This document shows positions 1,221-11,420 of a DNA stretch of 44,624 bases, in pieces. Source of the DNA: Lysobacteraceae bacterium (GTDB taxonomy: Bacteria > Pseudomonadota > Gammaproteobacteria > Xanthomonadales > Xanthomonadaceae). The notes under the pieces are model-generated. The model had not been told where the DNA came from and searched no databases. It worked only from the letters and a program-made list of their open reading frames with translations. Position 1 is the stretch's first letter. Each line of letters opens with the position of its first letter. The DNA lies in NCBI GenBank assembly GCA_003241895.1, contig QBLY01000012.1, positions 38,868 through 83,491 on the forward strand, in the 5' to 3' direction. A program made the position numbers and the translations under genes.

Positions 1221-1296
1221 GCCGGCATAGCTCAGTTGGTAGAGCAACCGCCTTGTAAGCGGTAGGTCCCCAGTTCGAATCCGGGTGCCGGCACCA
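1221..1296 (+). tRNA. tRNA-Thr (anticodon TGT)
   Basis: A complete 76-base cloverleaf with encoded CCA. The acceptor stem is GCCGGCA (1221-1227) paired with TGCCGGC (1286-1292), followed by A and CCA. The anticodon stem is ACCGC/GCGGT around the loop CTTGTAA, giving anticodon TGT (1254-1256), which reads ACA threonine codons. The T arm contains the GTTCGAAT box. A TAGAAT sequence at 1205-1210 lies about 10 bases before the 5' end and is a plausible -10 box. The gene stands alone between the SPOR gene and the large kinase. Confidence 0.97.
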
Positions 1297-1401
1297 TGGC
1301 TGCAGCAAGACCACAATCCGGGCGTAGCATTTGCCTGGGAATTGCGTTCCTATAAGCCCAAGGCAGCCCGACCCTCCCGGTCGGTGGAGTCCGCTTCGCG
1401 C

Positions 1402-7488
<6,087 letters not shown>

Positions 7489-7545: not shown

Positions 7546-7992
7546 TTGATCACCATCCTGATGGCCGATGACGATGCGGATGACCGGCTGATGACCCGTG
7601 AGGCCTTCCAGGAGTGCCGGCTGGGAAATCAGCTGCAGTTCGTGGCCGACGGCGAGGAGCTGATGGATTACCTGAACCGTCGCGGCAAGTACGCCGACCA
7701 GGTCCTCTACCCGATGCCCGGCCTGATCCTGCTGGACCTGAACATGCCCCGCAAGGACGGTCGCGAGGCGCTGCGGGAAATCAAGTCCGACCCCGCGCTG
7801 CGGGAAATCCCCGTCGTTGTGCTGACGACGTCCAAAGCCGAGGAAGACGTGGCCGCTTCCTACTGCGATGGCGCCAACTCGTTCATCACCAAACCGGTCA
7901 CCTTCGCGGCCCTGATCGAGGTGGTGCGGACCGTGGGCAAGTACTGGCTGCAGATCGTCGATCTTCCGGCTCCGGGGCAGCCGCCCCGATGA
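7546..7992 (+). CDS. Single-domain response regulator, Rcp1-like
   Basis: A 148-residue stand-alone receiver domain with no output domain. The acidic pocket is MADDDADD near the N-terminus, the phospho-acceptor is D64 in LLDLNMPRKDG, the switch Thr lies in VVLTTSKAEED and the conserved Lys in SFITKPVTF. The long insert after the acidic pocket (GEELMDYLNRRGKYAD) is typical of Rcp1-type regulators that partner phytochrome-like kinases, matching the HisKA type of the upstream gene. The TTG start has GAGG at 7534-7537; ATG 7561 is a possible later start but would cut into the first beta strand. The stop overlaps the next ATG (ATGA). It probably relays phosphate from the large kinase. Confidence 0.92.
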   Translation: MITILMADDDADDRLMTREAFQECRLGNQLQFVADGEELMDYLNRRGKYADQVLYPMPGLILLDLNMPRKDGREALREIKSDPALREIPVVVLTTSKAEEDVAASYCDGANSFITKPVTFAALIEVVRTVGKYWLQIVDLPAPGQPPR

Positions 7993-10421
7993 TGCAGCCG
8001 ATGCATTTGCGCGTGCTGGTGGTGGACGACGACCAGGAGGATTTCCTGATCCTGCGCGACCTTCTGGCGGATTTTCCCGCCGGCCAGTTCACCATGGAAT
8101 GGGTGCCGACGCTTGCGCAGGGTATCGAGGCGCTGCGTGCGGCCAGTCACGACGTCTATCTGGTGGACTACCTGCTGGGTCCCGACAACGGCCTGGACCT
8201 GGTGCGCCTGGCCGTGGCCGAGGGCAGCTCGCACCGGCCGGTGATCATGCTGACCGGGCAAGGCAACGCCGAGGTGGACCGCGAGGCCCTGGACGCCGGT
8301 GCGGCCGACTACCTGGTCAAGGGCAGCATCGACGGTGAGAAGCTGGCACGATCGCTGCGCTATGCGGCCGAACGTGCCCGCCACATCGGCGAGCTGGCGG
8401 AATCGCGCCAGCGCTACGAACTGCTGTTCAATCGCAATCCCTTCGCGACGTGGGCGTACGACGTCGAGACCCTTCGGTTCGTGACGGTGAATGACGCCAT
8501 GGTGGCCGCCTACGGCTACAGCCGCGATGAGTTGGCGGCCATGACCATCCTGGATATCCGCACTCCGGCCGAGGCCGCGCGCGTAAGGGCCAGGCTGGCA
8601 AAGGGCGAGGGGCGGGACGGCTTCGCGGGCGTCTGGCCACACCTGACCAAGGACGGCCGCATCATCTGGGCCGAAGTCACCAGCCACGGCCTGATCCTGG
8701 ACGGGCGCGCCTGCCGGCAAGTCATCTCCAACGACATCAGCGCCCGGCGCTCGGCCGAGGAGCGGCTGCAGCTGCTGCAGCGCGCGGTGGAATCAAGCGT
8801 GAACGGCATCGTCATCACCGACCCCCGCCAGCCCGACAACCCGATCATCTACATCAACCCGGCCTTTGAAGATATGACCGGGTACAGCGTGGCCGAGTCG
8901 CTGGGCCGCAACTGCCGCTTCCTTCAGGATGAAACCACCAGCCAGTCCGAGCTGGCCATCCTGCGTATCGCCCTGCGCGATGAAACCGACTGCAACGTCC
9001 TCCTGTCCAATCGGCGCAAGGACGGCGGCCATTTCCTGAACCACCTGTTCCTGTCGCCGGTGCTCGATGACGAGGGCACCCTGGTCAACTACGTCGGCGT
9101 CCAGAACGACATGACCGAGCGCCATCGCGTCGAGGTCGAGCTTGCCTACACGTCCAGCCACGACCCGGTCACCGGCCTGCAGCGCTTCCCAGTGCTCGAA
9201 GCCACGCTGGCCGACCTGCTGGCCACCGAAGGCGCCGTGGTGTCGGTGCTGTTCATCGACATCGACCGGTTCCACGCCGTCAACGAGTCCCTGGGCCATC
9301 TGATCGGTGACGACGCGCTGCATATCCTGGCGGATCGGCTGGGACCCGCGGTGGGCGGGCGCGGCTATCTGTCACGGTTTGCCGGCGACGAGTTCGTCGC
9401 GGTCGCGCCGGGCCTTGGCAGCGCGGAGGCCCTGGCCCTGGCCGAAAAACTGCGAAGCGCGGTGGCCCAGCCGATCGAAGGCGACGGCTACAATCTTTTC
9501 CTCACCGCCAGCATCGGCATCAGCCGCTCGCCCGGGCACGGCGACAGCGCAATGGATCTGCTGCGCCGCGCCGAAGCCGCCATGACCCGCGCCAAGCGCC
9601 AGGGCCGCGACATCGCGTGCGAGTTCTCGGCCACGCAGATGCAGGAACTCGAAGACCGCCTGCTGCTGGGCGCACGCCTGCGCAACGCCATCGCCCGCAA
9701 CGAGCTGAGCCTGCACTACCAGCCCCAGCTGGCCGCCACAGACCACCGCGTCACGGGCTTCGAGGCCCTGTTGCGCTGGAACAGCGCCGAGTTGGGCCCG
9801 GTGGCGCCGGGCCGCTTCATCCCCATCGCCGAGTCCCTGGGCCTGATGCCCGAGGTTGGGCTGTGGGTGCTCAACGAGGCCTGCCGGCAGGTCCGCGCCT
9901 GGTGTGACCAGGGCCGCACGGACTTCATCATGGCGGTGAACTTCTCGGCGCAGCAGCTGCAGCGGCCCGACATCGTCGGCCAGGTGCGCGAGGCGCTGCA
10001 TCGCCACGGCGTATCGCCCCGCATGCTGGAGATCGAGCTTACCGAGAGTTCGCTGATGGAAAACGTCGAGCGCGTGCAGGGCCGCCTGGCCGAGCTCAAG
10101 GCGCTGGGCGTGTCGCTGTCGCTGGACGACTTCGGCACCGGCTATTCAAGCCTGTCCTACCTGCGCCAGTTCTCGCTCGACAAGCTCAAGATAGACCGCA
10201 GCTTCGTGATGGACCTGCCCGACAACGCCGATGACGCCGTGATCGCCCGCACCATCGTCGCCATGGCGCACCAGCTGCGCATGCGCGTTGCCGCCGAGGG
10301 CGTGGAGACCACGCAGCAGGCCGAGTTCCTGCGCACCATCGGCTGCGACGAGCTGCAGGGCTACCATTTCGGCCGGCCGATGCCGCCCGACGAAATCGAC
10401 CTCAAGTTCCCCAAGACCTAG
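7989..10421 (+). CDS. REC-PAS-LOV-GGDEF-EAL cyclic-di-GMP protein
   Basis: An 810-residue cytoplasmic protein. Residues ~5-125 are a receiver domain (acidic VVDDDQED, phospho-acceptor D60 in LVDYLLGPDNG, Lys in DYLVKGS). A PAS domain covers ~140-255. A second PAS at ~260-380 has LOV signatures: NPAFEDMTGY, GRNCRFLQ with flavin-adduct Cys309, and NRRKDGGHFLNHL. The GGDEF domain (~390-560) has AGDEF (465-469) in place of GGDEF, and no RxxD inhibitory site is visible. The EAL domain (~575-805) keeps EALLRW (E592), NFSAQQL, ELTES, DDFGTGYSS (D713, D714), KIDRSF and EGVET, so phosphodiesterase activity is likely. The start at 7989 overlaps the previous stop. A GC hairpin without a T tract (10422-10440) follows. 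Blue-light and phosphorylation control of c-di-GMP is inferred. Confidence 0.93.
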   Translation: MMQPMHLRVLVVDDDQEDFLILRDLLADFPAGQFTMEWVPTLAQGIEALRAASHDVYLVDYLLGPDNGLDLVRLAVAEGSSHRPVIMLTGQGNAEVDREALDAGAADYLVKGSIDGEKLARSLRYAAERARHIGELAESRQRYELLFNRNPFATWAYDVETLRFVTVNDAMVAAYGYSRDELAAMTILDIRTPAEAARVRARLAKGEGRDGFAGVWPHLTKDGRIIWAEVTSHGLILDGRACRQVISNDISARRSAEERLQLLQRAVESSVNGIVITDPRQPDNPIIYINPAFEDMTGYSVAESLGRNCRFLQDETTSQSELAILRIALRDETDCNVLLSNRRKDGGHFLNHLFLSPVLDDEGTLVNYVGVQNDMTERHRVEVELAYTSSHDPVTGLQRFPVLEATLADLLATEGAVVSVLFIDIDRFHAVNESLGHLIGDDALHILADRLGPAVGGRGYLSRFAGDEFVAVAPGLGSAEALALAEKLRSAVAQPIEGDGYNLFLTASIGISRSPGHGDSAMDLLRRAEAAMTRAKRQGRDIACEFSATQMQELEDRLLLGARLRNAIARNELSLHYQPQLAATDHRVTGFEALLRWNSAELGPVAPGRFIPIAESLGLMPEVGLWVLNEACRQVRAWCDQGRTDFIMAVNFSAQQLQRPDIVGQVREALHRHGVSPRMLEIELTESSLMENVERVQGRLAELKALGVSLSLDDFGTGYSSLSYLRQFSLDKLKIDRSFVMDLPDNADDAVIARTIVAMAHQLRMRVAAEGVETTQQAEFLRTIGCDELQGYHFGRPMPPDEIDLKFPKT

Positions 10422-10499: not shown

Positions 10500-11420
10500 A
10501 TGAGCCTGCATCCCCCGATTGCGCTGGTCGGCGCACCCACCGACATCGGCGCCGGCCATCGCGGCGCCTCGATGGGCCCCGAAGCACTGCGCGTGGCCGG
10601 CCTGGCCGAAGCGTTGCGAGATCGAGGGTTGGAGGTCGTGGACACCGGCAACCTTGCCGGCCCGGTCAATCCCTGGCTTCCTCCCACCGACGGCTATCGC
10701 CATCTCGAGCAGGTGGTGGCCTGGAACCGCCTGGTGATGGACGCGATGTATGAACAGCTCGCGCAGGGCCGGCTGCCGATCCTGCTGGGCGGCGACCACT
10801 GCCTGGGCGTGGGCAGCATCACCGCCGTGGCGCGCTGGTGCCGCGAGCAGGGCAAGACGCTGCGCGTGCTCTGGCTTGACGCGCACGCCGACTTCAACAC
10901 CAGTGACGTCACGCCCACGGGCAACACCCACGGCATGCCCGTGGCCTGCCTGTGCGGGGTCGGCCCCCAGCCGCTGACGCACCTGGGCGGCGCGTCTCCG
11001 GCACTGCTGCCGTCGCAGATCCGCCAGGTCGGCATCCGTTCGGTGGACCAGGGCGAGAAACGCCTGATCCAGGAATACGGCCTGGACGTCTACGACATGC
11101 GCTACATCGACGAGATCGGCATGAAGCGCGCGATGGAAGAGGCCCTCGAAGGCATTGACGCCAACACCCACGTGCACGTGAGCTTCGACGTGGATTTCCT
11201 CGACCCGGCCATCGCCCCCGGCGTCGGCACCACCGTGCCCGGCGGCCCCAACTACCGCGAGGCGCAGCTGGTGATGGAAATGATCGCCGACACCGGCCGC
11301 GTGGGCTCGATCGACATCGTCGAACTCAACCCCGCCTTCGACGACCACAACCGCACCGGCCTGCTGGCGGTGGACCTGGTGGAAAGCCTGTTCGGCAAGT
11401 CCACCCTGATGCGCACCTGA
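10500..11420 (+). CDS. rocF: Arginase
   Basis: A 306-residue ureohydrolase that should hydrolyse arginine to ornithine and urea with a binuclear manganese centre. Metal ligands are visible as GGDH (H100), DAHAD (D127, H129, D131) and FDVDFLDP (D230, D232). The segment after DAHADFNT, with TGNTHGMP, and the closing ELNPAFDDHNRTGLLAV favour arginase over agmatinase. The length is normal. ATG 10500 was chosen for the GAGGA at 10486-10490 and because the protein then begins at the first beta strand (PIALVGAPTDIGAGHRG). It appears to be a single-gene unit. Agmatinase or formimidoylglutamase activity is less likely but not excluded by reading alone. Confidence 0.92.
   Translation: MSLHPPIALVGAPTDIGAGHRGASMGPEALRVAGLAEALRDRGLEVVDTGNLAGPVNPWLPPTDGYRHLEQVVAWNRLVMDAMYEQLAQGRLPILLGGDHCLGVGSITAVARWCREQGKTLRVLWLDAHADFNTSDVTPTGNTHGMPVACLCGVGPQPLTHLGGASPALLPSQIRQVGIRSVDQGEKRLIQEYGLDVYDMRYIDEIGMKRAMEEALEGIDANTHVHVSFDVDFLDPAIAPGVGTTVPGGPNYREAQLVMEMIADTGRVGSIDIVELNPAFDDHNRTGLLAVDLVESLFGKSTLMRT

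Follow-up and report, generated by a model that had tools for sequence, protein, structure and literature searches.

A putative light- and phosphorylation-responsive c-di-GMP phosphodiesterase encoded last in a three-gene two-component unit of the Arenimonas group

About 18% of bacterial LOV proteins carry a GGDEF domain or both a GGDEF and an EAL domain (PMC4844311). For instance, SL2 of Synechococcus elongatus has the order LOV-GGDEF-EAL and its phosphodiesterase activity is raised by blue light (PMC8846402; PMC5812497). LadC proteins are LOV-activated diguanylate cyclases with a LOV-linker-GGDEF organization (PMC10396304; PMC12805367). LOV-GGDEF parts of LOV-GGDEF-EAL proteins showed no light-regulated synthesis, and light may act on the EAL domain there (PMC10396304). 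Furthermore, PPHK of Leptolyngbya is a phosphorylation-responsive photosensitive histidine kinase (PMC11480761). Here, we describe a gene of the Arenimonas group carried by a stretch of 44,624 nucleotides (the window, i.e. the whole stretch analysed) of contig QBLY01000012.1. This gene encodes a protein with the domain order REC-PAS-LOV-GGDEF-EAL and is the last of a three-gene unit that an earlier, sequence-only reading of this DNA had overlooked. With a probability of about 0.68, we consider that it encodes a two-input phosphodiesterase of cyclic di-GMP (c-di-GMP) that would be the output of a dedicated two-component unit.

The frame 7989-10421 on the + strand contains no stop and gives a translation of 810 amino acids, so that the gene had been correctly placed and oriented by the sequence-only reading. 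The open frame reaches further upstream, with a GTG at 7614. We prefer the start at ATG 7989 because it shares 4 nucleotides (ATGA) with the end of the receiver gene that precedes it (stop at 7992) and because the matches of full-length genus orthologues start at residues 1-7 of this translation. With this start, the gene comprises the following features:

7989-10421, + strand: REC-PAS-LOV-GGDEF-EAL protein, 810 amino acids (translation, Pfam, residue check)
8013-8342, + strand: REC domain, residues 9-118, phospho-acceptor D60 (Pfam Response_reg)
8481-8687, + strand: PAS domain without LOV residues, residues about 165-233 (Pfam PAS_3, sequence)
8772-9119, + strand: LOV domain, residues 262-377, with C309 (expected flavin adduct), N308, R310, Q313, R326, N341, N351 and Q372 (Pfam, NCBIfam, phmmer, residues, model)
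9156-9611, + strand: degenerate GGDEF domain, residues 390-541 (AGDEF at 465-469, H429 for Lys, no RxxD; Pfam, residues)
9675-10379, + strand: EAL phosphodiesterase domain, residues 563-797, catalytic signature intact (Pfam E 2.7e-74, residues)

The domain order initially proposed is borne out by Pfam and by the LOV residues. Pfam detects Response_reg at 9-118 (E 1.6e-13, a value for the whole protein), PAS_9 at 272-377 (E 3e-26), GGDEF at 390-541 (E 8e-30) and EAL at 563-797. The further PAS domain already claimed corresponds to the best stretch of PAS_3, at about 165-233. In the REC domain, the acid pocket D13-D15, the phospho-acceptor D60, T89 and K111 are all found, in agreement with the receiver proposed earlier.

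Compared with NCBIfam, the LOV stretch reaches 132.8 bits for YtvA_fam (262-387) and 129.8 bits for BluLightHisKinLov (253-382), scores that stay under the whole-protein cut-offs of these families because the effector domains differ. LOV proteins also come on top in a phmmer search of the PDB, the best E-value being 8e-30 to the LOV domain 9vf7 (best 60 of 137 sequences at 1e-5). A structural model of the LOV domain only (residues 253-392) has a mean predicted local distance difference test (pLDDT) score of 91.1. When it was compared with the PDB by Foldseek, all 50 listed matches were LOV structures with query template modelling (TM) scores up to 0.91, the dark-state structure of LadC (8c05) being at rank 7 (best 50 of 520 at 0.001 or better). 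The core LOV residues G306, N308, C309, R310, F311, L312, Q313, N341 and N351 are all present, together with R326 and the active-site Q372. The nine core residues and this Gln are those of the filter of Dietler et al. (2022), i.e. G59, N61, C62, R63, F64, L65, Q66, N94, N104 and Q123 of BsYtvA (PMC9098866), the equivalence with BsYtvA being drawn through family motifs and not by direct alignment. The flavin pocket previously claimed, Cys309 included, is thus upheld by residues, profiles and fold, and the flavin-contact Asn and Gln residues, whose lack had been named as decisive against it, are all in place. These data argue for a LOV domain that is predicted to bind flavin and expected to form an adduct at Cys309.

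Among the 13 genus orthologues, 12 have a LOV domain. The Cys is kept in all 12, as are the other core residues (nine in total), down to 58% LOV identity, indicating that this residue set goes beyond chance. In the LOV domains of another genus (g23; 48-50% identity), the Cys, Asn and Arg are retained, while Leu312 is replaced by Met in 3/3 and Gln313 by His in 1/3. A chance resemblance or a non-LOV PAS domain was excluded: the column of the Cys is occupied by Pro, Ser or Phe in paralogues L002, L003 and L008 of the same genome (L and G numbers are our labels for loci and genomes), and paralogue L004 has no LOV motif.

On the output side, all the signature elements of the EAL domain are found: the motifs FEALLRW, ELTE, DDFGTGYSS (loop 6), KID, EGVE and LQGYHFGRP, and the residues E592, N651, E683, D713/D714, K734, E770 and Q790, which we take to have their usual motif, metal and catalytic roles in this protein. 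The claim of intact EAL residues therefore holds. Some GGDEF-EAL tandems, such as LapD, reportedly act as c-di-GMP receptors, and LapD appears among the weak NCBIfam matches of the window protein, far below the cut-off. Nevertheless, the intact catalytic residues and DDFGTGYSS loop make it highly improbable that this EAL domain works as a receptor that binds c-di-GMP for signalling, as degenerate EAL proteins do.

The GGDEF domain is degenerate, a point absent from the sequence-only reading. It has AGDEF for GGDEF and FHxxNE for FKxxND (DIDRFH..NE), and the position of the RxxD inhibitory site, which is dispensable for GGDEF activity, reads GGRGY. All 13 genus genes have His for Lys and Glu for Asp after Asn and lack RxxD at that position; 12 of them read AGDEF and one TGDEF. 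Genus g23 has TSDEF at this motif. More distant members (L101, L102, L103 and L104, see below) have SGDEF or GGDEF, which suggests that the degeneration is derived in the window and genus lineages. Furthermore, the EAL domain is more conserved than the GGDEF domain in 14/14 orthologues compared over both domains, REC or LOV, rather than EAL, being the most conserved in several of them. Since the EAL site is intact and the GGDEF domain degenerate, the likely output is c-di-GMP hydrolysis; the "c-di-GMP enzyme" of the earlier reading is better narrowed to a likely phosphodiesterase.

The protein might instead be bifunctional, the AGDEF domain also making c-di-GMP and light or phosphate flipping the balance between synthesis and hydrolysis. 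The domain does keep D424, N432, D441, D467 and E468, which presumably have metal and guanine roles, and the SGDEF or GGDEF of the distant members is consistent with such a function. Moreover, VCA0965 of Vibrio cholerae, an AGDEF enzyme that has an RxxD site, makes c-di-GMP (PMC3974145), so that the window protein has probably, though not certainly, lost cyclase activity. However, the His and Glu replacements shared by the whole genus together with AGDEF or TGDEF, the lack of RxxD, the TSDEF of g23 and the consistently better conserved EAL domain make a bifunctional enzyme unlikely.

The phosphorylation input that we propose for this likely phosphodiesterase brings in the two genes that precede it in the unit:

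1285-7488, + strand: first gene, multi-PAS, GAF-containing histidine kinase, open reading frame up to 2067 amino acids (HisKA 1830-1895, HATPase_c 1936-2051), start position approximate (Pfam)
7546-7992, + strand: second gene, stand-alone receiver, 148 amino acids from TTG 7546 (Pfam Response_reg E 5.4e-18)

The kinase has the H-box SHDLQEP and ATP-binding motifs, and the receiver has the acidic pocket, LLDLNMP, LTTSK and TKP. Because these two genes adjoin the gene of the LOV protein, dual control of one enzyme is strengthened, and it is sound to infer, as had been suggested, that light and phosphorylation would act on the same enzyme. A phytochrome or another photosensor in the kinase was considered and rejected, the open reading frame 1285-7488 having no NCR (LOV Cys) motif and its Pfam list no phytochrome family at E 0.01.

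The order kinase-receiver-LOV protein is found in 9/9 Arenimonas-group loci of the genome scan (L021-L029), some kinases being split or cut by contig ends, and again in three more genomes of the genus (L079, L085, L086); with the window, this makes 13/13 carriers (L087 is the contig of L026 and not a separate locus). Of 27 genus genomes, 13 have a receiver orthologue (E 1.9e-66 or better), and the REC-PAS part of the LOV protein, or of its LOV-less form, is found in exactly these 13; weaker receiver matches (40-47% identical) occur in three others. The arginase gene located downstream of the unit (10500-11420 in the window) is present in 26/27. Five non-carriers were read. In four of them (L088-L091), the SPOR-domain gene and the arginase gene, which flank the unit in carriers, adjoin, including in G023, the non-carrier with the nearest arginase (93% identical; genome 89% complete); they are far apart in the fifth (L092). 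Hence, the three genes behave as a block, being gained or lost together.

Two of these loci call for comment. In Arenimonas daejeonensis (L029, genome G003), the gene of the LOV protein is split in GGDEF and could be taken for a pseudogene. Since the neighbouring kinase, tyrosyl-tRNA synthetase and ORF11656 genes of this chromosome are also split, in two or three frames, assembly frame errors are suggested and a sequencing error is more likely than decay; the gene was left unmended and only its first piece was used for the tree. In addition, L028 (JAIBEO010000203.1), titled Rhizobium sp., carries a unit that is 69% identical to that of the window and whose gene order is of the Arenimonas type. 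This record seems to correspond to the locus of the same-genus genome G014, so that its title looks mislabelled.

Beyond the genus, the searches of the family, class and phylum scored the best 2-8 candidates per genome and the counts are thus lower bounds. With the REC-PAS part as query, matches at 1e-35 or better were obtained in 16 of 297 family genomes (11 from the window genus, three from g23 and two from g29). The g23 proteins (L080-L082) align over their whole length, carry the LOV Cys and have kinase and receiver genes upstream. Those of g29 (L083, L084) were rejected as not having the same architecture: they show REC-PAS, further PAS-like repeats and GGDEF, without a LOV Cys motif (by eye), and the match ends at or before the GGDEF start. 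The REC-PAS-LOV query gave eight matches at 1e-40 or better in 398 phylum genomes, own genome included. Two of them (G828, G793) align over 7-382 of the query. In two others (G1022, G1033), the alignment covers REC and PAS, and LOV lies further on, after a longer PAS-containing stretch. The three other matches begin at residue 114 or later and have no REC motif before LOV. The order therefore looks uncommon, as had been supposed: REC-PAS-LOV is found near full length in at least 2 of the 398 genomes (own excluded) and with a longer PAS stretch in at least two more.

Three of these four phylum loci, which belong to families f185 (L101, L102) and f161 (L103), have kinase and receiver genes directly upstream, so that the unit order exists in another genus of the family (g23, three loci) and in two other families of the class (three loci). 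At the fourth one (L104 in G1033, family f172), a kinase-like open reading frame lies upstream, 31% identical over the ATPase part, and no receiver match was found upstream. A second, C-terminal REC is detected by Pfam in L080, L101, L103 and L104, the four that were run, and is absent from the window protein. These REC-PAS-LOV-GGDEF-EAL-REC proteins (L080-L082, L101-L104) share their core order with the window protein, L103 and L104 differing from it by the longer PAS-containing stretch before LOV. The whole-protein query matched 18 of 369 class genomes at 1e-130, own included. In the 18 matching loci other than that of the window, one genome contributing two, the alignment starts at residue 121 or later, without this REC, and 5/18 have the LOV Cys motif. 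No description of a REC-PAS-LOV-GGDEF-EAL protein or of this operon was found in a literature search whose scope left out most subscription journals and all supplements.

The LOV Gln (position 372) varies among the orthologues. Within the genus, Gln (CAG) is found in 8 of the 12 LOV domains and Leu in 4, the Leu codon being CTC in Arenimonas terrae (G026, L024) and G004, and CTG in G014 and G012. Elsewhere, the residue is Ser, Ser and Ala in g23, Gln in G828, G793 and G1022, and Leu in G1033. In a tree from which the LOV columns were left out, at least six changes of the Gln state are required across the 15 rows (including the outgroup). The partner of G026 is a Gln row (89/93), and G004 falls together with two of them (98/96). 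G014, G012 and a Gln row form a group (100/100; 80/78 for the branching inside it). These different codons and branches argue for a Gln to Leu change repeated three or four times within the genus. The ratio of nonsynonymous to synonymous substitution rates (dN/dS, Nei-Gojobori) in LOV is 0.07, 0.12, 0.21, 0.35 and 0.38 for five Gln-Leu pairs and 0.09-0.26 for four same-state pairs; the nine pairs share members and the two highest values are those of the pairs with G004. Such low values indicate purifying selection, with no sign of decay. According to Dietler et al. (2022), signalling persists when the LOV Gln is replaced and dark recovery is generally slower; their Gln-less receptors comprise about 350 natural proteins and engineered mutants, including a LOV-GGDEF-EAL protein of Mesorhizobium loti, and Leu is among the commonest natural replacements (PMC9098866). 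A different LOV-GGDEF-EAL-like protein, encoded in another genome of the genus and with no REC motif before LOV (L117, G011:C19:58183-58539), also has Leu for Gln (GVLND).

In G005 (99% complete), REC-PAS runs straight into GGDEF-EAL in one open frame, with the kinase and the receiver upstream. One change suffices on the tree to explain the presence of LOV, G005 being a long, weakly placed branch; since the outgroup has LOV, this genome apparently lost the domain and did not lack it ancestrally. No LOV match at 1e-15 and no BLUF were found anywhere in the G005 genome. No direct repeats that would explain this form were found within either PAS linker, the two linkers having been compared separately and not to each other.

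This LOV-less form also bears on the possibility that LOV is a redox or flavin sensor, or a structural spacer, light being incidental. LOV domains can indeed respond to redox, the rest of the protein is kept in G005 without LOV, and the Gln is lost in 4/12 LOV-bearing genus orthologues and 3/3 of g23. However, the photochemical Cys and the nine core residues are kept in all the LOV-bearing genus orthologues, and Gln-less LOV proteins still signal light (PMC9098866). As Cys-less LOV proteins can respond to light too (PMC9098866), the Cys alone proves neither a light nor a redox role. Moreover, BLUF genes accompany the unit, being present in 10/13 carriers (all but G003, G005 and G026) and 2/14 other genus genomes (Fisher p 0.0018, uncorrected for kinship or incomplete non-carrier genomes). 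Taken together, these observations make an incidental role of light very unlikely.

The genome carrying the window has a BLUF domain gene (G000:C11:234504-234797, + strand). It also encodes a 311-amino-acid LOV-GGDEF protein (L119:1489-2424, + strand; G000:C44 about 174716) with the Cys (DCRYLQ), the Gln (GIQKD) and an intact GGEEF, which looks like a LadC-type blue-light cyclase. One genome would thus hold both a predicted LOV cyclase and a predicted LOV phosphodiesterase.

In the two-input phosphodiesterase that we favor, the multi-sensor histidine kinase, probably located in the membrane (long hydrophobic N-terminal part, by eye), would pass phosphate to its putative partners, the stand-alone receiver and/or D60 of the LOV protein, and blue light would independently drive formation of the Cys309-flavin adduct. 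Both signals would run along the helical REC-PAS-LOV-linker chain of a presumed dimer, reposition the GGDEF-EAL pair and change EAL activity, the GGDEF domain probably serving nucleotide binding, regulation or dimerisation instead of c-di-GMP synthesis. The net effect would most likely be a fall of c-di-GMP in blue light. Light would be a tunable and removable layer, through the Gln to Leu change, with slower dark recovery expected, or through the absence of LOV with the phosphorylation arm kept.

Some observations weigh against this mechanism. The full-length AlphaFold model (pLDDT 65.3, predicted TM score 0.29) offers no usable geometry for the signal relay, Pfam and motif reading recognised no light sensor in the kinase, and the unit can do without light, as G005 shows. 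In addition, the activity of VCA0965 implies that the AGDEF domain of the window protein may be active, although the latter lacks the RxxD site that VCA0965 has.

More tentatively, the light input could be viewed as an evolutionary dial, Gln/Leu swaps repeatedly retuning the photocycle under constraint and LOV having been cleanly removed once to leave a phosphorylation-only enzyme; we regard this as possible but rather doubtful. If true, it would provide a natural allelic series for the role of the LOV Gln and for the logic that combines light and phosphate (AND, OR, override). Why this Gln is so prevalent, although signalling dispenses with it, is an open question (PMC9098866), for which the Gln, Leu and LOV-less forms of matching genes are native material.

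Among the known systems, SL2 is the closest one for the output. The window protein has the same LOV-GGDEF-EAL order with an intact LOV Cys and EAL: in both, LOV with the canonical Cys precedes GGDEF-EAL and an EAL output is expected. Unlike SL2, it has REC and PAS before LOV, kinase and second receiver genes alongside, and a degenerate GGDEF. LadC has LOV-GGDEF only, with a working GGDEF, whereas the window protein has an EAL domain and a degenerate GGDEF. In comparison with the set of Gln-less LOV proteins, Gln and Leu alternate here between orthologues of a single genus that occupy the same syntenic locus. In the PDB, the sequence that best matches the window REC is 6oap ("Dual sensor histidine kinase", over its residues 5-120, E 1.3e-11), which we take to be PPHK, a protein that combines a receiver with a photosensor in tandem. 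The photosensor of PPHK is said to bind phycocyanobilin and its output to be a kinase; the window protein shares the receiver-photosensor tandem and differs by its LOV domain and its expected c-di-GMP phosphodiesterase output. A receiver and a photosensor in one protein make it possible to test how two unrelated signals add up inside one enzyme, and PPHK, a kinase, is to our knowledge the main solved case; in contrast, the window protein would act on a second messenger, with a kinase of its own encoded next to it. LOV-GGDEF-EAL proteins are thus already known as a kind, and what appears new here is the receiver front end, the kinase and the receiver encoded alongside, and a set of orthologues that comprises Gln, Leu and LOV-less forms.

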